A stretch of 64,000 nt of DNA, taken from positions 1 through 64,000 of the forward strand of contig CANIVT010000012.1 in NCBI GenBank assembly GCA_947471565.1, given 5' to 3'. This document shows, in pieces, positions 3,503 to 13,155 of this stretch. The notes below the pieces were generated by a model. It did no database searches, had not been told where the DNA came from, and worked only from the letters and a program-made list of their open reading frames with translations. Each line of letters starts with the position of its first letter. The stretch's first letter is position 1. The position numbers were made by a program, and so were the translations under genes. This DNA comes from Spartobacteria bacterium (GTDB lineage: Bacteria > Verrucomicrobiota > Verrucomicrobiia > Chthoniobacterales > UBA6821).

Positions 3503-4408
3503 TCATGCAATCACCTGGAGAGAGTCTCCCTCTCCATTGATACACAGCACTCCCTTCACCTCGGCAGCCCCCCTCAAGCCCATCCGAATCGCATCCCCGA
3601 TATACTTCTGAGCCGTCCTCTTCATCGGACGTGCACCCAAGGTTCGATGAATTCCTTTCCGGACAAGGAACTCCAGCGCCTCTTCGGATAGCCCCAGATC
3701 CAAACCTTTCTTTCTGAACCGGGTCAGTTCCTCGTCGATCACTAAGCGGGCGATCTCCCTCTGTGTCTCGGGTGAAAGAGGCCTAAAGACGATCTTCTCA
3801 TCGAACCTGCCAATCAGCTCTGGTCGAAAGTACCGATGTAGCTCTGACAACACCGCCCGTTCCAAGGTAGCAAAAGGCAGCCGAGTCGGCCTCATCAACT
3901 GCTGAGATCCGATATTACTCGTGCAGACGATGAAGAATCCCGTCAGGTCATGGGTCTGGTGATCCGCCAAGGTAATCCGGGCTGCATCGAGCATCTGAAG
4001 GAAGAGATCCCAGATCAGCCGGTGCGCCTTCTCTATCTCATCGAAGAGGAGGACTCCCTTACTATGCATGGCGAGGATCTTCCCCAATCTACCAGGGTTG
4101 CCCGATTCATCCCCAAGGAAGAGCTTCACACTGTCGATGTGCTGGAACTCGGACATATCGAAGCGATAGAGAGCCCCCTCTCCTAAAAGATACCGGGAGC
4201 ACTCTAGGGTAAGCTCGGTCTTTCCGACTCCTGTCGGTCCCAGGAACAGGAACGATCCCAGCGGCTTATCAGGAGGCTGGAGCCCAAGCTCTCCACGCTC
4301 CAAGACGGAGCAGACTCTCGGGATGACATGGCCTTGCCCCCGGATCTTGGAGGAGAGGTAGCCCTCCAGGCCGGAGAGTTTCTGAAGAAGTGAAGGATCG
4401 GGATTCAT
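3503..4408 (-). CDS. Clp/Hsp100-like AAA+ ATPase in mobilisation operon
   Basis: The chosen start (4408) overlaps the coupling-protein stop as ATGA; a start at 4444 would overlap by 40 bases. The 301-residue product is one AAA+ module resembling the second ATPase domain of ClpA/ClpB: Walker A GPTGVGKT (57-64), Walker B LLFDE (120-124), sensor 1 TSN (163-165), an arginine-finger candidate R201 in GRFDEKIVF, and sensor 2 GAR (258-260) in the C-terminal small domain. The N-domain, first ATPase ring and middle domain of ClpB are absent, and no IGF/L-type ClpP loop is obvious. The operon position suggests it remodels a protein during DNA mobilisation, for example the relaxosome, but this is inference. 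Confidence 0.8.
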   Translation of the reverse strand: MNPDPSLLQKLSGLEGYLSSKIRGQGHVIPRVCSVLERGELGLQPPDKPLGSFLFLGPTGVGKTELTLECSRYLLGEGALYRFDMSEFQHIDSVKLFLGDESGNPGRLGKILAMHSKGVLLFDEIEKAHRLIWDLFLQMLDAARITLADHQTHDLTGFFIVCTSNIGSQQLMRPTRLPFATLERAVLSELHRYFRPELIGRFDEKIVFRPLSPETQREIARLVIDEELTRFRKKGLDLGLSEEALEFLVRKGIHRTLGARPMKRTAQKYIGDAIRMGLRGAAEVKGVLCINGEGDSLQVIA

Positions 4409-5934
4409 AGACTGGATGGCGATGAGGTTGTACCTCGCCACCATTGGCGAAGCGCATAGTCGGGACGCAGGCGGGTGAACCAGATGGGGTAAATCCCCTC
4501 TGGGGTGATGGGAGGAAGGAGTCTCTTTCTAAACGGTTTCTCGCAATGGCAGACGATCGCGGTAAAGCGTGGGAGCTTTCGCAACCGGAAGGCTTCCAGC
4601 CATGGCTTGATCCTGGTCTGGTAGTTGTAGGAACGCTTCCCTGCGGACCACCCCCAGGATTTTTCAGTGATCTCCCTTTCTCCGATACTCTTGGAAGCAA
4701 TCTGGGCGGAATCATGGTTTGCCACCGTGAAAATTAACTCGTTACTGAGGTTCAGCATCAGGACATCGGCATAGCGCTTGTCGAGTGAGCCAAGGAGTGA
4801 GGTGTATGCCTGGGTAGCCAGGACAATGGTGGCCCGAGCCTCTCGGATGACTCCAGCTGCCCGGTGATCCGCAAAGGCCGACTCAGCGCCTGTGATGATC
4901 TCCTGTCCCTCGTCAGCAAAGAGGATCAAGAGGTTATCTCTCTCCCTCTCCTCGGCCGTCTTGTCGAAGCGGCTGAGTGCATGGAAGTAGTAGGAGAGCT
5001 TTAGGATGGTATTGATGTAGAGCCGCTCGCTCTGGAACTTCTGTGGCATAGCGAGGCAAACGATCTTCCCCTGATCGATCTGCGAAACCGAGAAGGTCGG
5101 TTCCTCCGCGCAAAAGACCTCGGCGATCTCCGAGTTCAGAAAGAACTCCAGATAGGTGCTCAGTGTTCCCTGCACTCCTCCCAACTGTTCGGGAGGCTGA
5201 TCGAGATAGCTCTGAAAGGAGGCCAACAGTTCACTGGAGCGTTGATCTCCCTTCTTGGACAAGATCTCCATGGTCTCGGTGGAATCAGTAGTATTGAGCA
5301 GAAGTCGATGGATGTTCGGAATGGTCACGTAGGCCTCGATGTGACGCAGGATCTCGAAGGCGGTCTGGATCGCCAACTGGGCCTTTGTTGGGAAGAAGGG
5401 GTTTCCTCCCCTCCCCCCACTCAGTGAGATGGCAGTATCGACGATCACCTTGGCGTAGGTGGAGGCGGGGACAGCGGGGTTCCCCGTGAGGTTGATCGTG
5501 TGGAGTGGTCGCCAGAGCACACTCGCTCCCTCGGGGCGGGTCTGAAGAAGAATCAGATCCTCACTACGTCCGAAGTGGGCAGCCATCCGAACAAGGATCT
5601 CCCAGTAGAGACCTTTCTGATCGAGGCAGATCCCTCCCCAGTCCTTCACATTCTGAAAGATCTGAAAAGTGATCGAATTGATCCCCGACTGGGTCTTCCC
5701 AGAGCCCGTCCGACCGGTGATGAGCCACCCCCTGACGAAATCCTCCATCGACCAGGTAAGTCCTCCCAGGCGTAGGACCACATTGCCGGAATGGGCCTCC
5801 CCAAAGAGACTCCACGCACCAAAGCCGGCACAGAGGAAAACCACCAGCCATGATAGGGGCGGCAACAACACAAAATGCCCGACGATTGCTCCGACGATGC
5901 AGAGGAAGAAGATGATCAGGTCAGGGAGCCTCAT
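4405..5934 (-). CDS. Type IV coupling protein (TraD/TraG/VirD4-like)
   Basis: The 509-residue product starts with two membrane helices (about 5-22 and 24-41), as coupling proteins do. Walker A follows at GRTGSGKT (74-81). The Walker B strand LLILFADEGQE lies near residue 345, and an ATTxxxATQAY-like segment (ARATIVLATQAYTS) follows as in TraD/TrwB-type ATPases. Such proteins form a hexameric DNA pump at the inner membrane that carries the relaxase-bound strand to a secretion channel. The gene lies between the relaxase and the AAA+ ATPase. No type IV secretion channel genes are in the window, so the element may rely on another element's channel. Confidence 0.85.
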   Translation of the reverse strand: MRLPDLIIFFLCIVGAIVGHFVLLPPLSWLVVFLCAGFGAWSLFGEAHSGNVVLRLGGLTWSMEDFVRGWLITGRTGSGKTQSGINSITFQIFQNVKDWGGICLDQKGLYWEILVRMAAHFGRSEDLILLQTRPEGASVLWRPLHTINLTGNPAVPASTYAKVIVDTAISLSGGRGGNPFFPTKAQLAIQTAFEILRHIEAYVTIPNIHRLLLNTTDSTETMEILSKKGDQRSSELLASFQSYLDQPPEQLGGVQGTLSTYLEFFLNSEIAEVFCAEEPTFSVSQIDQGKIVCLAMPQKFQSERLYINTILKLSYYFHALSRFDKTAEERERDNLLILFADEGQEIITGAESAFADHRAAGVIREARATIVLATQAYTSLLGSLDKRYADVLMLNLSNELIFTVANHDSAQIASKSIGEREITEKSWGWSAGKRSYNYQTRIKPWLEAFRLRKLPRFTAIVCHCEKPFRKRLLPPITPEGIYPIWFTRLRPDYALRQWWRGTTSSPSSL

Positions 5935-6169
5935 CTGGGGGATCGGGGTGAAACCGGCTTACGAGGAAGTTGAAGAGCTTCCTCTGAGGATCTGAGATTT
6001 CCTGGGTGTAGGATTTGAGATTCACCGTGGTGACACCTGTTCCTTCATTGATGGCCTCATGAGAAAAGGCGTCCACGGAAGTGGGTTTAAAAACGAAATC
6101 TTCACAGATGACGTATTCAGAATGTCTGTCTCTGTCCTTGGCTTTGAGGTTGGGTCCTTCGATTGGCAT
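5921..6169 (-). CDS. Small hypothetical protein between relaxase and coupling protein
   Basis: This 82-residue frame overlaps the relaxase 3' end by 53 bases and the coupling-protein start by 14 bases. The product is hydrophilic, without membrane helices or a recognisable domain. Its position between two mobilisation genes, and the otherwise unfilled gap, argue that it is translated. It could be a relaxosome accessory protein, but nothing in the sequence shows this. Confidence 0.5.
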   Translation of the reverse strand: MPIEGPNLKAKDRDRHSEYVICEDFVFKPTSVDAFSHEAINEGTGVTTVNLKSYTQEISDPQRKLFNFLVSRFHPDPPDEAP

Positions 6170-7268
6170 GGTTTTGGTTTTGGTTGCTTGGGAAGCCGTA
6201 GTGTTGGCTGTAAATCCGATGATCCTCCCGGTAGGTTTGCTTCATCCGAAAGAGAAGGGTCTGCATCTCGCGAATGGAGTATTTCTCGATCGAAGCCGTC
6301 ACCTTCTCGATGGTTCGAACTGGCATTGGTTTGCTCTGCCGGAGGAGTCTCGGGATATACCGAATGAGGCGAACTGTGCGATGGGCCTGCCTCTTTTTCT
6401 CCAAAACTGTCTCCAGATTCTGAATGCTCTGGTAGGCATGACGGAGCCGGGTGGAATACAAGGATTGCTCCTGTTTTAGGGACTCCATCTGCTTCGCTGA
6501 GAGCTTGGGAGCGATAGTAATCTTGTCAGCATCGAGTCGGTTACCCAGTTCCTGACGGAGCTTCTCTGGATCGGCCAACAACTTGTCCCAGCGACGGTTT
6601 TCCCTATCAAATGAGCGCATCAGATACGTCATCTGGTTCTTGTTTCCCGAGTCTCGTGTGCGGGACATGCTCACCCCGACATACTTGCCATTGGCCGTAC
6701 GCGGACAAATGGCCACATGGGCATGAAGGTTGTCCGTATCGTGATGCAATCCGTAGGCATATCCGATCGAGTCATTCGGATGAAATCGCTCCTGAAAATT
6801 ACGCAAAACCTTCTTCAGGCTGATCTGGAGTACTGAGTCGGGATTGAGCCCGGAGGCAACGAGTTTGTCGTGAAAAGGAGCCGACATGCTGAAGACCAAA
6901 CGGTGCTGGATCACAGGATTTCGTGAGCTGCTCTGATACTGTTTCAAGTGCTCCAGCCACTCTTTACAGATCCGTTTTTTCCTTTCTCCATTACTCAAAG
7001 CCGAGGGTGAAGAGCGGCTCCCGTCGGGATTAATGACGATCTTGTGATGGAGAAATCCCCCTGCATGAACCTGACCGAGAGTCTCCTTGGAGGCGTAGTC
7101 TGCGAACTGCTTGAGTCTCTTCCCTAGGGTAGTGTGATCAGCCTGATCCTTAAGCGGGGATTGCCCGCTTCGCGAAGCGATTTTGCGTCCGGAAGTCTCG
7201 TCCAAATAATCCAAGTCCAGACGGGATCGCCACGTCTTTTTGAATGGAAAGATCATCCCATCCTTCAT
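6117..7268 (-). CDS. HUH relaxase (MobA/VirD2-like)
   Basis: The 383-residue product carries the relaxase metal-binding histidine triad in HHDTDNLHAH (about 175-184), preceded by the strand QHRLVFSMSAP (121-131). These are hallmarks of the MobA/VirD2-type relaxases that nick oriT and stay covalently bound to the transferred strand. The usual N-terminal catalytic tyrosine cannot be assigned by eye; Tyr21 and Tyr58 are candidates. The C-terminal 130 residues are charged and helical. The start overlaps the MobC-like gene stop as ATGA. An inverted-repeat cluster 260 bases upstream (7531-7604) is a plausible oriT. Confidence 0.8.
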   Translation of the reverse strand: MKDGMIFPFKKTWRSRLDLDYLDETSGRKIASRSGQSPLKDQADHTTLGKRLKQFADYASKETLGQVHAGGFLHHKIVINPDGSRSSPSALSNGERKKRICKEWLEHLKQYQSSSRNPVIQHRLVFSMSAPFHDKLVASGLNPDSVLQISLKKVLRNFQERFHPNDSIGYAYGLHHDTDNLHAHVAICPRTANGKYVGVSMSRTRDSGNKNQMTYLMRSFDRENRRWDKLLADPEKLRQELGNRLDADKITIAPKLSAKQMESLKQEQSLYSTRLRHAYQSIQNLETVLEKKRQAHRTVRLIRYIPRLLRQSKPMPVRTIEKVTASIEKYSIREMQTLLFRMKQTYREDHRIYSQHYGFPSNQNQNHANRRTQPQSQGQRQTF

Positions 7269-7495
7269 GCAAGGAGATCCATTTTCTCAACGAGCCAGTC
7301 GATCTTATGCTCGATGCGATTATGAAATTGCAGGTCGATCGATTCGTCTCCGGATACCTTGTAGAGAAGCGCCTCCAAAAGCTCATCGCGATTCCTCAAA
7401 CCCAACGACTTTTTGAGAGAATTGAGGCGGCGAAGCCCCTCCGAACTGACATTGAATTCGACGCGGCTGGTGCCGGGAATCTTCGTTCTAGGCAT
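7265..7495 (-). CDS. Small MobC-like accessory / ribbon-helix-helix-type protein
   Basis: The start at 7495 (MPRTKIPGTSR) is preferred over 7555, which would read through the inverted-repeat cluster. The product has 76 residues. The stretch SRVEFNVSSEGLRRLNSLKKSLGLRNRDELLEAL (given here in two parts: strand RVEFNV, helices EGLRRLNSLKKS and RDELLEALLYKV) fits a ribbon-helix-helix protein. Its position directly before the relaxase, with an ATGA overlap, is where MobC/TraY-like nicking accessory proteins are found. It likely binds the nearby candidate oriT and regulates the operon. Confidence 0.6.
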   Translation of the reverse strand: MPRTKIPGTSRVEFNVSSEGLRRLNSLKKSLGLRNRDELLEALLYKVSGDESIDLQFHNRIEHKIDWLVEKMDLLA

Positions 7496-7497
7496 GG

Positions 7498-7908
7498 TCA
7501 AATGATGAAAAATGCCGAGTGGATTCCGTAGCGTGCCTGACACGCGAAGGAACATGTTTTTTGCGCAGCAAAAGCGAAGCCGTGATTTCCCCGGGGGAAA
7601 TCACTTTGCTCTGTTACAATTGGACCGGGATAATTGTCCTTTAAACTACCTGTGGAGCCTCTTTTCCACGGTACTGAAACCCAAGGCTTGGACAGGGGTA
7701 AGGAGCCGATTGCCAGCAGGAGGAAGGTGAAGCCAACGACGGACGGTAATGGGCGGATGGAAAGCTTGTCTTTTTGCAGGGTGAGCTGATTGGAGGGAGG
7801 AGGCTGGCACCGGGTGAAAGCTTCAGCTGAACCCAGTGCCGAAAGCGCAGCGGCTGACTCCGGCCAATGAGCGTGACGGAGATGTTGATACATAGAGTGG
7901 ATGCTCAT
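7498..7908 (-). CDS. Doubtful reading frame between ardC and the MobC-like gene
   Basis: An open frame of 136 codons starts with an ATGA overlap on the ardC stop, which fits coupled translation. It has one hydrophobic stretch (VVGFTFLLLAIGSLPL). Against it, the last third runs straight through a cluster of inverted repeats that looks like an oriT, and the encoded sequence there has no protein-like character. If real, only the first two thirds may matter. No family was recognised. Confidence 0.25.
   Translation of the reverse strand: MSIHSMYQHLRHAHWPESAAALSALGSAEAFTRCQPPPSNQLTLQKDKLSIRPLPSVVGFTFLLLAIGSLPLSKPWVSVPWKRGSTGSLKDNYPGPIVTEQSDFPRGNHGFAFAAQKTCSFACQARYGIHSAFFII
7531..7604. other. Candidate oriT: cluster of three inverted repeats
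   Basis: Three perfect inverted repeats lie within 74 bases. They are GCGTG/CACGC with a 5-base loop (7531-7545), TTTTGC/GCAAAA with a 3-base loop (7559-7573), and GTGATTTCCCC/GGGGAAATCAC with a single central base (7582-7604). The cluster sits just upstream of the MobC-like and relaxase genes, the usual place for an origin of transfer. The nick site cannot be identified by eye. It could instead be an operator for the ribbon-helix-helix protein. Confidence 0.45.
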
Positions 7909-8882
7909 AAATGGATGCCCTTGCTTTGGGACTTCCCCAGGTCCTTTGTGCCGGGTGATTTGAGGGCCAGTACTGCTTCGGATTTCCTTGTGACCGAGTC
8001 TGCCGGAGACTGGGATTCCGCTAGGGACTCCTTCTGCTCGATACCGAGGATGAAATCAGTGCTCTTCTGAGCTTGAGATGAGGCCGTGAAGATTATCTTC
8101 GGATCGTTCTGGAACTTCTCGATCCAGGAGCCGAGGTAGGCGGCGGAATTGTCGAACTGAACTTGATTCAGGATACCAGCCTCATTCGAGAGGAAGGATG
8201 CCCCCAACTCCGCAATGAGCTCCTCCTTGGAGTAGCGTTCTGATCCGAACTTGATCGGCAGGGTGACACCCTCTCGATCGAGCCGTGAGGCATGACCGGT
8301 GGAGTGGGTCATCTCATGGAAGAGGGTCTGGTAATATGCCTCGGGGCTCCGGAAGGTCTTTTGGGCCGGGAGTCGGATGACATCCTCTGTAGGTGAATAC
8401 ACTGCCGCAAAGCCCGTGTGATAGATCGGACAGATCTTGGCTTCCTGGACGATCCTGGCGGCCTTTTCGATCGGCTGCATGGGGTTCTGAACAACCGTCT
8501 GTACCGGGGGCTCGATGCCCTCGCTTTGATCGAGATTGAAGGCATTACTCCAACGGATGAAGGGGATCCGAGTGGGGCGTCCATTACTGCCTAAGACAAG
8601 AGCCCCATTGCCATCCCGTTTCTCGAAGAACTTGTAGTAGATGACGGGGGTCGCTTTCTCCCCCTTCTTGATGTTTCCCCCAAGGTCATGGGCCTGCTTG
8701 AAGGTCAACCAGTAGGGAGACTTAAAATCACTCCCTCCTAGGATGAGAGAATTGATCCCACGGTAGGGCTTCTTGGAGACGATGTTCTGGACTCCCGCCC
8801 AGGGCTTCTGCCACGGGACAGTGCCCTTCTTGAGCTGCTCGATGAATCGCTCGGTAATAATCTCGTAGATGTCCCTACTCAC
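7905..8882 (-). CDS. ArdC-family antirestriction protein (zinc metallopeptidase domain)
   Basis: The N-terminal half matches the ArdC single-stranded-DNA-binding domain (DUF1738 type): YEIITERFIEQLKKGTVPWQ (6-25), then YRGINSLIL, and later YYKFFEK. The C-terminal half has the zinc-peptidase motif FHEMTHSTGH with HExxH at 189-193. ArdC proteins travel with conjugative DNA and protect the incoming strand from restriction. The gene is inside the mobilisation operon, overlapping its upstream neighbour as ATGA. The last 60 residues, after the peptidase domain, are polar and probably disordered. Confidence 0.85.
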   Translation of the reverse strand: MSRDIYEIITERFIEQLKKGTVPWQKPWAGVQNIVSKKPYRGINSLILGGSDFKSPYWLTFKQAHDLGGNIKKGEKATPVIYYKFFEKRDGNGALVLGSNGRPTRIPFIRWSNAFNLDQSEGIEPPVQTVVQNPMQPIEKAARIVQEAKICPIYHTGFAAVYSPTEDVIRLPAQKTFRSPEAYYQTLFHEMTHSTGHASRLDREGVTLPIKFGSERYSKEELIAELGASFLSNEAGILNQVQFDNSAAYLGSWIEKFQNDPKIIFTASSQAQKSTDFILGIEQKESLAESQSPADSVTRKSEAVLALKSPGTKDLGKSQSKGIHL

Positions 8883-9100
8883 AGGATCACCTCCTCGCGG
8901 GCGTGTACCAGGTGGAGGATAGCGTTATGTTCGGAGAGACCGAACCGGCGCCCCACAGCTGACGGGAGGTCTTCTCCATCAATCACACCTGTGAATAGCG
9001 GGGTGGCCCCCACGGCAACACCCCGATCAACCCAGCTGAAAAAGTACTCCTCTAGCAGCCGGTCGTGCAGATCAGAAGGGATCATGCCGGCGACCCTCAC
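8879..9100 (-). CDS. Small hypothetical protein, mobilisation operon
   Basis: This 73-residue frame overlaps ardC as ATGA (8879-8882) and overlaps the upstream gene as ATGA (9097-9100). Tight coupling on both sides supports a real gene. The product is acidic with no membrane segment or known motif; internal ATG codons (for example MIPSD, residue 6) are alternative starts. The role is unknown. Confidence 0.6.
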   Translation of the reverse strand: MRVAGMIPSDLHDRLLEEYFFSWVDRGVAVGATPLFTGVIDGEDLPSAVGRRFGLSEHNAILHLVHAREEVIL

Positions 9101-9417
9101 TTCCAGTTAATGGCGTGAGAGAAATCGAGAACGAGTTCCTCCACCTCGCTCTCAGTGTATCGGAGCGAGAATGCGAGGTCTTCGAGGCTCTCTTTGCCGA
9201 CTAGGTCAGAACGGACGCAGTAAAGCACCACGGCAGCACGAAGGCCTTTTTCTGAGGGTTCCTCCGCCTCGGCAACCCACTCAAAGGTACGGCCTAAGAC
9301 TTCACAGATGCGCTCAATGCTATCGTCCCCCCTCTCTGGTAGGGGTTCGATGTGATCAACAGGGTGCCTAGTCTCGGCGTTCTGGATGTCGTTTTCGGGT
9401 AGTTGGGGTGTATTCAT
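9097..9417 (-). CDS. Small acidic hypothetical protein, first gene of mobilisation operon
   Basis: I use the ATG at 9417 (MNTPQLPEND); an ATG three codons upstream (9426) is equally possible. The 106-residue product is strongly acidic. Its last 55 residues are helical, with the order LRAAVVLYCVRSDLVG and SLEDLAFSLRYTESEVEELV, which could hide a helix-turn-helix-like fold (LEDLAFSLRYTESEV). It is the first gene of the minus-strand operon and its promoter should lie at 9427-9700. Function unknown. Confidence 0.55.
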   Translation of the reverse strand: MNTPQLPENDIQNAETRHPVDHIEPLPERGDDSIERICEVLGRTFEWVAEAEEPSEKGLRAAVVLYCVRSDLVGKESLEDLAFSLRYTESEVEELVLDFSHAINWK

Positions 9418-9426
9418 CCCCCCCAC

Positions 9427-9986: not shown

Positions 9987-10991
9987 ATGCCTGGTGAAAC
10001 CGCCAATATCGGAGAATTCGCAAGAATTGTATCAGAAAAAGTCTTTAGCAAATTCGGTTGGAAAATTTCAGGCACTGAAAACGAAAATTTCCCCTGTGAA
10101 AAAATTGAAGTTCATCAGAGGAAAAGTCGCAGTCCAACACACCCTTGCGACATCGTTTTCTACTATGACGATCCCTACGAAGAGAAAAGACAGTATTTTC
10201 TCACCGATTTAAAGAGTTACGGTCGTGATTCGATTACCAAAACAAGCCTACGTGCTGCCTTACGGGAACTTGGTAGGAGTGTCGATTGCGCAAATTCAAG
10301 CGCCGAATGGCGAAAAAAATACGTTAATCAAGATGTAGGGGATTGGCAAGTTCATGGCTTACTTTTCATTTTCAATCACGACAACAATTTCAAACACAGT
10401 TTTGAAACTTTTTTTCTCGACGAAAGCCCTGACGACATTGCGCTACCCAAAAACTCTCGTCTTTTTGTTTTTGGACCTGAGAGAATTCATTATCTTCAAA
10501 ATATTCTTGCTGACATCTCTAAATGTCGAGGAGATCAACGTTTGCCTCTTGAGAAATCCGTCTTCCTTTACCCCCACCGAATCCGAAGATTTTCGAAAGA
10601 GATGAACTCGGAAACTGCGAGGATCGAACTCCTCCTCGGCCCATGGCAAATCCTTCCGTTTGACTTTGAAGATACGGAGGGTAAGCACAAAACTGGCGTA
10701 TTTATCTATTATCAAGGATCTGGAAAAGACCCGGCCGAATTCGAGTACATTTTCGATTTTTGCTTTCGGAATCAACTTGTCAAAGACGGTCACACAATCG
10801 AGATTCGCATGCTGAATCCTGATTCAAGCGTCCTTCAGGTCTTGTCGCAAGCGAAGGAGAACTTCGAAAAAAACTTTTATTCCTCCCCAGACATAGCAAA
10901 ACGAATGATGCAGTTTAATGTTTATTCCATCGACGAGACAGAAATTAGATTCAGCTCTGAGATAGTCGGCATGGAGGCTCGAAATGGATAA
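9987..10991 (+). CDS. Unrecognised protein with PD-(D/E)XK-like nuclease motif (gene 1 of 3)
   Basis: The 334-residue product has an N-terminal region that fits the PD-(D/E)XK nuclease core. A helix (GEFARIVSEKVFSKFGW, 9-25) precedes a strand with D55 (CDIVFYY), then a strand ending in the D-L-K triad (FLTDLKSY, D74 and K76). A long helix follows (SLRAALRELGRSVDCA). The motif is seen by eye only. The C-terminal 200 residues alternate strands and helices and are not recognised. The stop overlaps the next gene by 8 bases (10984-10991). Base composition is more AT-rich than the mobilisation operon, which suggests a separate origin. A defence nuclease is a reasonable hypothesis. Confidence 0.7.
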   Translation: MPGETANIGEFARIVSEKVFSKFGWKISGTENENFPCEKIEVHQRKSRSPTHPCDIVFYYDDPYEEKRQYFLTDLKSYGRDSITKTSLRAALRELGRSVDCANSSAEWRKKYVNQDVGDWQVHGLLFIFNHDNNFKHSFETFFLDESPDDIALPKNSRLFVFGPERIHYLQNILADISKCRGDQRLPLEKSVFLYPHRIRRFSKEMNSETARIELLLGPWQILPFDFEDTEGKHKTGVFIYYQGSGKDPAEFEYIFDFCFRNQLVKDGHTIEIRMLNPDSSVLQVLSQAKENFEKNFYSSPDIAKRMMQFNVYSIDETEIRFSSEIVGMEARNG

Positions 10992-12108
10992 ATACTATCG
11001 ATCTTCGTTTTACTGGCCAGATGACAAAGATATTTATGACTTTCTTGATGGCGTAAACACACCAAATGAAAGAATTCGTAAGCTTTTGCGGTCCTTTGGG
11101 GTATTTGTGTCTCCTTCGGCGCCACGAAAAGAACTGCTTTCATATGTCTCTTTGCTTTATCACGATTGGAATGCCGCAAACAAAGTAGTCAGCATGGCCA
11201 CGGTCAGATCCGCGGAAGATAAAAGGACGAACCAGAATGTAAAATTTGAAGGTGGTTTTAATCTCATTCAGAGCGCAGTAGAAGATATTCGAGCACTACG
11301 ACACGACCGAGACAGGGAAAAATATACATTCATTGAAACCACCGCCGATACTATTGCGTTCACGGTGGATTACATTGATGTTTTGAGTGCTGCGACAAGA
11401 CTTTTGCAAGAACGAGAAAAGACTATCTTCGTTCAAATCACGAGAACACAAGATGGCTTCAAGGCTCGATATGACAACAACCCAAGGGCCAAACAGATCG
11501 TTGAAAACATCCTTGGAAAACTTGAGGAACAGGCAGCCGACGAAGGCCGTACAATCGAAAAGAATTCTATTGAGCTTAGCAGCCTGCAAATAGCTTCTTT
11601 ACGTGTTTCATTTTTCAAGAATCTACTAACAGGCATTGAAGGAACGGAGTTGCGCGATGTCGTAAATGTCCGCATGAAGAAGCTTGAGAAGCCACCTGAA
11701 AACGAAACAAATGAAAAAGATGCTGACTCCGATCCAGATCCAACGGACGACGAGCTTGAAGACGCTCTCGAAAAAGTAATCTTCTACGGCAAACGACTTT
11801 TCACGGTTCCCGAATTTCAAAAACTCGTCGATAAATCTTTCTTCATTGCGAATGCCGTGTGGCGAGCCGAACTCGCCACAGAAAAGCGCGAACATGTCGA
11901 ATTAACCGCCGGATTCAACGACGAGGGCAAAGATTTCTCTTACAAAATCTTGGGAATCTACACACGCGATGATGAAGGTGAGATTCGTGCTACGCGAGAG
12001 CATCCCCCAAAGGAATTATCCGAAACGCTACTTACAAAACTCGAATTTCACGCCGAGGTCACGATGAAGTCGTTGCTGAAGGAAGCTGAGGAGAGAGCAA
12101 ATGAATAG
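10984..12108 (+). CDS. Unrecognised protein with SAP-like N-terminus (gene 2 of 3)
   Basis: The 374-residue product begins with a segment (about 15-65) whose order, IRKLLRSFGVFVSPSAPRKE and then LLSYVSLLY, resembles SAP-type or similar small helical DNA-binding domains ('LLRSRGVFVS...KEELV'), which also occur in some defence proteins. Residues about 105-235 are largely helical. An acidic low-complexity linker (EKDADSDPDPTDDELED, about 244-260) separates a C-terminal alpha/beta part. It overlaps both neighbours by 8 bases, so the three proteins are probably made in fixed ratio and act as a complex. The family is not recognised. Confidence 0.65.
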   Translation: MDKYYRSSFYWPDDKDIYDFLDGVNTPNERIRKLLRSFGVFVSPSAPRKELLSYVSLLYHDWNAANKVVSMATVRSAEDKRTNQNVKFEGGFNLIQSAVEDIRALRHDRDREKYTFIETTADTIAFTVDYIDVLSAATRLLQEREKTIFVQITRTQDGFKARYDNNPRAKQIVENILGKLEEQAADEGRTIEKNSIELSSLQIASLRVSFFKNLLTGIEGTELRDVVNVRMKKLEKPPENETNEKDADSDPDPTDDELEDALEKVIFYGKRLFTVPEFQKLVDKSFFIANAVWRAELATEKREHVELTAGFNDEGKDFSYKILGIYTRDDEGEIRATREHPPKELSETLLTKLEFHAEVTMKSLLKEAEERANE

Positions 12109-12784
12109 ACACATCTGGTATTCATGCAACAAGGTGACTGAACGCCAAATTGAAACATTGCGACAAGCAATGCTTAATAACCCGTTCAAGGAAATTAGCC
12201 CGACAGGTTTTCGTGTCCAAGATGCACGTAAAAAGAAAATATCAGGAACCTTCATCGAGAAACTCGACTATTTTGATGAGGTCCTCGATCCACTGGGAGC
12301 CGCGCTCAAGGTTAGGCGCTTGCGATTTGATATAACGGAATTCTTGATTTCTACAGATTATCCACACATAGAACTTCTGAATCCTTCTCGATCTGTCCAA
12401 ACTATTCTTAACCGTCTAGCGGAGTTTTTGAATTTTGAGATCACTTATGAGCTCGTTTCATTCGATCTGGAAAGCCTACTAACTGAGTTGATTACTGTAT
12501 TCCCAAAAATAACCATTTCTCGTGTTCGATACGATGGCGTTCCTGTCGGACAAGATGCATTCGCTACAATCATTATTTCAGGACAAAAAGACGCCCGTGA
12601 AAGCATACCTTCATTCCTCAAAGGCAAAGCAAGAAAGCTCCGTAAATTCACAGTTATCTCAAAGGAACCGAGATTTCGTTGTGAGTTTTCAGATTCAGGC
12701 AGGATATTTCTCGATGGCACCGATAGCGATGAGCTGCTCAAAGCCCTCCGTGCCTGCTTCGTTCGATTGAACGCTGAAGCCTGA
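12101..12784 (+). CDS. Unrecognised protein (gene 3 of 3)
   Basis: The 227-residue product starts within the end of gene 2 (ATGAATAG overlap, 12101-12108). It has alternating helices and strands, no signal peptide or membrane segment, and no catalytic motif I can identify. The C-terminal part ends with FLDGTDSDELLKALRACFVRLNA (strand then amphipathic helix, quoted here as FLDGTDSDELLKAL and RACFVRLNA). By position it is the third component of the operon, perhaps a sensor or regulator. Nothing in the sequence proves that. Confidence 0.65.
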   Translation: MNRHIWYSCNKVTERQIETLRQAMLNNPFKEISPTGFRVQDARKKKISGTFIEKLDYFDEVLDPLGAALKVRRLRFDITEFLISTDYPHIELLNPSRSVQTILNRLAEFLNFEITYELVSFDLESLLTELITVFPKITISRVRYDGVPVGQDAFATIIISGQKDARESIPSFLKGKARKLRKFTVISKEPRFRCEFSDSGRIFLDGTDSDELLKALRACFVRLNAEA

Positions 12785-12851
12785 GCCTATCCCATACTCT
12801 TCAAACATCTCCGTCAGTTTGATTTCTCAACTTCATAAGACCCTTGATGTT

Positions 12852-12918: not shown

Positions 12919-13155
12919 ATGACATCTGAAGCACTGTTTACGGTAGCCTTTGGAATTGGGGAGGGATGGAGCGTGAAGAGCTGTAGATTTGAAGGGGCCC
13001 CTTCGAAGCTAATGCTGAATCTGGACTTCAAAGCAGGATACCGATTTGCGTGTCCGGCGTGTGAACCAGCAGTTCCACTCTCGACCCAGTGGTTAAGAGG
13101 TAAAGGCATCTGGACTTTTTTTATTAGTTCCTGCGTCGGACAAAAACAATTCTGA
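12919..13155 (+). pseudogene. ISL3-family transposase, N-terminal remnant
   Basis: The frame encodes a typical ISL3 transposase N-terminus: LFTVAFGIGEGWSVKSCRFE, then LNLDFKAGYRFACPACEPAVP with the first zinc-binding CPAC pair. After about residue 55 the sequence stops resembling the family (a WRHLDFF-like segment appears only as GIWTFF), and it ends at 78 residues instead of about 400. The rest of the transposase is missing, so the element is a dead fragment between the three-gene operon and the polysaccharide cluster. Confidence 0.65.

Follow-up and report, generated by a model that had tools for sequence, protein, structure and literature searches.

The first 64,000 nucleotides of contig CANIVT010000012.1 of a Spartobacteria bacterium (the window) carry three tandem genes of AT-rich composition beside a set of mobilisation genes, which raises the question of whether the trio is a defence system, whether such a system is already known and how its proteins might act. 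A sequence-only reading had suspected an undescribed defence system with a PD-(D/E)XK-like first gene, a SAP-like start in the second and no recognisable motif in the third, and had proposed structure prediction, comparison with GAPS4-type proteins and a search for the three genes together in other genomes. The features concerned are the following:

9987..10991, + strand: gene 1 (Hp1), ORF of 334 aa; two-domain protein with a predicted N-terminal PD-(D/E)XK domain and a C-terminal domain
10984..10991, + strand: start/stop overlap of genes 1 and 2, 8 bases, ATGGATAA, read from the sequence
10984..12108, + strand: gene 2 (Hp2), ORF of 374 aa; GapS4b homologue
12101..12108, + strand: start/stop overlap of genes 2 and 3, 8 bases, ATGAATAG, read from the sequence
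12101..12784, + strand: gene 3 (Hp3), ORF of 227 aa; predicted RdgC fold, probable DNA-binding subunit

All three frames were intact and both overlaps were exactly 8 bases long, and the ORFs and the sequence thus reproduced the layout first described. The GC content of the trio was 43.2%, below both that of the mobilisation operon (3503-9426, 54.4%) and that of the window as a whole (50.6%), in agreement with the AT-richness noted earlier. Searches for promoter and terminator signals belonging to the trio gave none above chance.

The PADLOC profiles of Rst_3HP matched the three proteins in order, Hp1 with gene 1 (E 1.5e-51, profile positions 1-333 of 333), Hp2 with gene 2 (E 1.7e-24, positions 5-355 of 359) and Hp3 with gene 3 (E 1.6e-10, positions 16-214 of 227), and the genes are adjacent, in that order and on one strand. 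PHROGs 7059, 6531 and 5850, each annotated as of unknown function, also matched the trio, and in a Vibrio phage record these three genes carry the name Rst_3HP. Members from Klebsiella and E. coli fitted the Hp1-Hp3 profiles near-perfectly (792, 820 and 521 bits), and the trio in a Klebsiella phage and in E. coli is flanked by the genes for the phage portal and the replication endonuclease, which is the position of the P2 hotspot. Rousset et al. 2022 (PMC9122126) describe a three-gene system from the P2-phage hotspot that protects against P1, one of eight phages tested on it, and give no clear predicted domain for its three genes. From the profile scores and the hotspot position, we infer that these E. 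coli sequences are the system tested in that work. DefenseFinder lists Rst_3HP as mainly prophage-encoded (PMC9090908).

Because of the ordered PADLOC matches, the Vibrio phage label and the members in the P2 hotspot, the window trio is, at the level of sequence, a divergent Rst_3HP carried as cargo beside mobilisation genes. The suspicion of a defence system therefore holds by homology, whereas the system is not undescribed, its P2-hotspot form having been published with anti-P1 activity; protection against phage by the window trio is predicted from that form. Pfam searches with the three proteins and ten relatives of each gave no match above chance, and a PDB sequence search with profiles gave no relevant match. 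Matches to the PADLOC profiles DrmMII (E 0.007) and E1-E2 (E 0.069) were judged to be chance.

Relatives found by scanning came from proteobacteria, Verrucomicrobia, Acidicapsa, an Armatimonadetes MAG, a cyanobacterial MAG and others, as well as from viral contigs, P2-like phages, filamentous phages and plasmids, and they often adjoined integrases. The complete trio was present in 168 of the 176 loci with gene 1. Seven of the eight incomplete loci ran into a contig end; the remaining one (L063, Nannocystis) had a gene 2 homologue split over two frames and no detected gene 3, reflecting either decay or a sequencing error. After subtraction of two copies of the window from the complete loci, 166 non-duplicate loci were left, all with the same gene order on one strand, so the proposed search for the trio in other genomes found the genes co-occurring and ordered. 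Pairwise distances among the three proteins were strongly correlated (0.93, 0.80 and 0.83; the highest value under permutation was 0.10), indicating that the three genes travel together. With the profiles of one known system matched in order and 166 non-duplicate loci, the arrangement is far beyond chance. Within E. coli, a close form was found in 18 of 5426 genomes.

Upstream of the trio, on the minus strand, lie genes for a Clp-type AAA protein, a type IV coupling protein, a MobA/VirD2-like relaxase (window 6117-7268; Pfam score below the cut-off) and an ArdC-type antirestriction protein. The IS fragment at 12919-13155 encodes the N-terminal part of a transposase that has a full-length relative of 409 aa in a congener (L226). 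The coupling protein, the relaxase and a real transposase fragment thus bear out the description of the trio as adjoining mobilisation genes and an IS fragment. The relaxase family was found in 8 of 15 congeners, in multiple copies in some, and a second copy is present elsewhere in the source genome (G000:C10:70711-71811). Gene 1 was found in none of the 15 congeners searched; its absence there, while eight have the relaxase, points to acquisition by transfer. The ArdC-type protein (7905-8882, minus strand; ArdcN plus a zincin-like peptidase) is encoded about 1.1 kb from the trio, and the same element thus bears both the defence trio and an anti-restriction gene. Just 3' of gene 3, a stretch of 55 bases (window 12790-12845) is found again, with about 78% identity, close to the beginning of several contigs in one congener (G013), and it behaves as an IS end or a short repeat would.

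Gene 1 had been read as nuclease-like, and D55, D74 and K76 of its PD-(D/E)XK motif were found where that reading had placed them. Together with E4, they were invariant in 109 dereplicated gene 1 relatives, a set in which conservation of D55 and of D-L-K is partly circular. Because the peptides used in the scans contained D55 or D-L-K, the count was repeated on 19 relatives found by tblastn or profile without use of the motif, and all four residues were again invariant; these 19 independent sequences, and E4, which was in no search pattern, make the fair test of conservation. The model of gene 1 (pLDDT 90.8) has an alpha-beta-beta-beta-alpha-beta core (helix 2-22, strands 51-54/56-61, strand 68-78, helix 85-104 and strand 120-130), with D55 between the first core strands and D74 and K76 on the following strand. 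The proposed structure prediction therefore yielded a nuclease core. The N-terminal fold matches, namely HamA of Hachiman, FokI, XisH proteins and EndoMS, were middling (Z about 7.5 to 8.3) yet consistent, all being nucleases, and the fold neighbours also included Cap4 and Can2 of defence systems, whereas Foldseek gave no match for the model at E <= 0.001. NCBI annotation of one E. coli genome names the gene 1 homologue a PD-(D/E)XK nuclease domain protein. The assignment of gene 1 as a predicted PD-(D/E)XK nuclease with an intact motif is thus supported by the model.

Residues 162-319 of gene 1 matched RPB5, LmuA and EcoT38I in the fold comparison. The N-terminal domain of RPB5 belongs to the restriction-endonuclease-like fold, and the model suggests that the C-terminal domain (about 162-319) is a second, degenerate and apparently inactive fold of this kind. 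This C-terminal half, close to RPB5 and LmuA, has no obvious active site.

The comparison with GAPS4 proved well chosen. The NCBIfam model GapS4a matched gene 1 with 45.7 bits (E 5e-12) against a cut-off of 270 bits, which places gene 1 as homologous to the curated family and outside it; because the match was below the cut-off, true GapS4a loci were retrieved for comparison. In small search sets, the gene directly downstream of GapS4a was recognised by the gene 2 profile at values from 1e-14 to 1e-5. Profile-profile comparison gave 97.5% for gene 1 with GapS4a and 97.3% (E 1.8e-11) for gene 2 with GapS4b, whereas all four wrong pairings remained below 1%. Gene 2 and GapS4b are homologous but distant, and no curated GapS4b model matched in the model libraries searched. 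These profile comparisons show homology of gene 1 to GapS4a and of gene 2 to GapS4b. In L188, L215 and L216, the GAPS4 loci that extended far enough downstream, two genes were present and no third. The D74-x-K76 of gene 1 aligned with S-x-K in six GapS4a sequences, with serine in place of D74, so the two nucleases may differ in active-site arrangement. Among viral contigs, no GapS4a was confirmed. In one Vibrionaceae genome (L189, G168), gapS4a is interrupted and gapS4b is still open.

Although no recognisable motif had been seen in gene 3, structure prediction gave a confident model (pLDDT 95.5) with an RdgC-like fold. Compared with E. coli RdgC, Foldseek returned E 1.3e-7 and probability 1.00, and superposition gave Z 11.9 with an rmsd of 4.8 over 214 of 227 residues; Iml3/CENP-L came next (Z about 10.6), and RexA was weaker. 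Sequence similarity to RdgC was not detected, either with Pfam PF04381 (E <= 1 for gene 3, 0.5 for ten relatives) or with hhalign (about 1%). According to the model, gene 3 is a protein of the RdgC fold and, by sequence, not of the RdgC family. The record of Pseudomonas phage 54-4 names its gene 3 an RdgC-like exonuclease; nothing found for gene 3 supports the "exonuclease" label. RdgC, Iml3-Chl4 and RexA have a common fold and bind DNA, and RdgC-fold proteins do so without sequence specificity (PMC11077077). In the case of lambda RexA, which has this fold, the capacity to bind DNA did not correlate with phage exclusion (PMC11077077), and a common fold is therefore no proof of function for gene 3.

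For gene 2, the SAP-like start survived only as a resemblance of the N-terminal consensus by eye. The Pfam SAP model gave no match to gene 2 at E <= 1 or to ten relatives at E <= 0.5, and a short domain can escape Pfam. The alignment of gene 2 was without any conserved stretch. Taken together, 3HP resembles a nuclease core of the GAPS4 type with an RdgC-fold protein added as the third component. In the literature searched, in which no relevant paper on GAPS4 was found, neither a 3HP-GAPS4 nor a 3HP-RdgC link appeared.

As to how the trio might act, we consider it probable that it is a divergent Rst_3HP in which genes 2 and 3 recognise phage DNA and gene 1 cuts it. The three proteins would form one complex, which gene 3, as a putative RdgC-fold DNA binder, and gene 2 would place on phage DNA. 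What is recognised would probably be a structure and not a sequence, for example an end of the DNA or an intermediate of replication or recombination, and placement would then set the nuclease of gene 1 free to cleave DNA. Cleavage may be confined to phage DNA or may also kill the host, and on this point the explanation is least certain. It is a possibility of some weight, although we do not favour it, that gene 1 is an abortive-infection effector, with genes 2 and 3 as the sensor that detects infection, after which all DNA of the cell, host DNA included, would be degraded; this departs from our explanation solely in which DNA is cut. The fold neighbours Cap4, Can2 and HamA of gene 1, which come from other defence systems, are in line with such an effector, and the published protection against P1 among the eight phages tested (PMC9122126) fits a specific trigger, but nothing found here points to host DNA cleavage or cell death. 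A more detailed arrangement, which we regard as rather doubtful, would join the GAPS4-type core to an RdgC/Iml3-like clamp, genes 2 and 3 forming a heterodimeric ring or horseshoe on DNA, as in Iml3-Chl4, that gates gene 1. The profile of gene 2 (about 146-291) is weakly similar to that of gene 3 (about 78-193), with p 0.012 to 0.045 and a score of 19.9, where the highest of 60 block-shuffled controls reached 19.7; this similarity hints at a paired clamp, with which it is compatible, and is a lead only.

It is improbable that gene 3 acts as a protector that coats or encircles the DNA of the host or the element in the manner of RdgC while genes 1 and 2 attack the rest. Recognition could reside in genes 1 and 2, as the GAPS4 loci examined have a and b only, and DNA binding by RdgC-fold proteins is not sequence-specific (PMC11077077), but GAPS4 does without a protector. 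Decay or loss of expression, leaving the window copy as a remnant on a mobile element, seems very unlikely: a broken transposase fragment next to the trio, promoter and terminator signals no better than chance and the lack of the trio in 15 congeners would agree with decay, whereas three intact frames, exact overlaps and the retention of all catalytic residues despite deep divergence argue against it. We give hardly any credence to a non-defence module for maintenance or recombination of mobile-element DNA, built from a nuclease and an RdgC-like protein. RdgC is recombination-associated, and mobilisation genes adjoin the trio as integrases often do its relatives; however, the P2-hotspot system was shown to protect against P1 (PMC9122126), and the carriers are unrelated (P2-like phages, filamentous phages, plasmids and chromosomes).

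Two of the three proteins of a system published as lacking clear domains now have a predicted fold. The system itself was already known; this analysis adds its relationship to GAPS4 and the RdgC-like fold of gene 3, and four residues (E4, D55, D74 and K76) and one clamp-like protein can be named as testable. If the proposed relationships are true, 3HP and GAPS4 would be one nuclease defence family differing in the accessory DNA-binding part, and an RdgC-fold protein would join RexA among anti-phage systems.

Compared with HamA (Z 8.1) and other PD-(D/E)XK defence nucleases, gene 1 has a similar nuclease fold; unlike Hachiman, the trio has no helicase partner and has other partner proteins. Gene 3 resembles RdgC, Iml3, CENP-L and RexA in fold across almost all of its length (Z 11.9 for RdgC and 10.6 for Iml3), whereas it differs from RdgC in having no detectable sequence similarity, in its length (227 residues vs. 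about 302) and in its constant occurrence here within the trio. The likeness to GAPS4 lies in the homology of gene 1 to GapS4a (97.5%) and of gene 2 to GapS4b (97.3%); however, the GAPS4 loci examined lack gene 3, gene 1 falls under the 270-bit cut-off, and S-x-K stands against D-x-K. Although the window proteins share only 34%, 22% and 21% identity with the Klebsiella form (genes 1, 2 and 3) of Rst_3HP and are encoded beside mobilisation genes instead of in a P2-like phage, the likeness to Rst_3HP comprises all three genes, their order, near full-length matches, the tandem overlaps and carriage by mobile elements.
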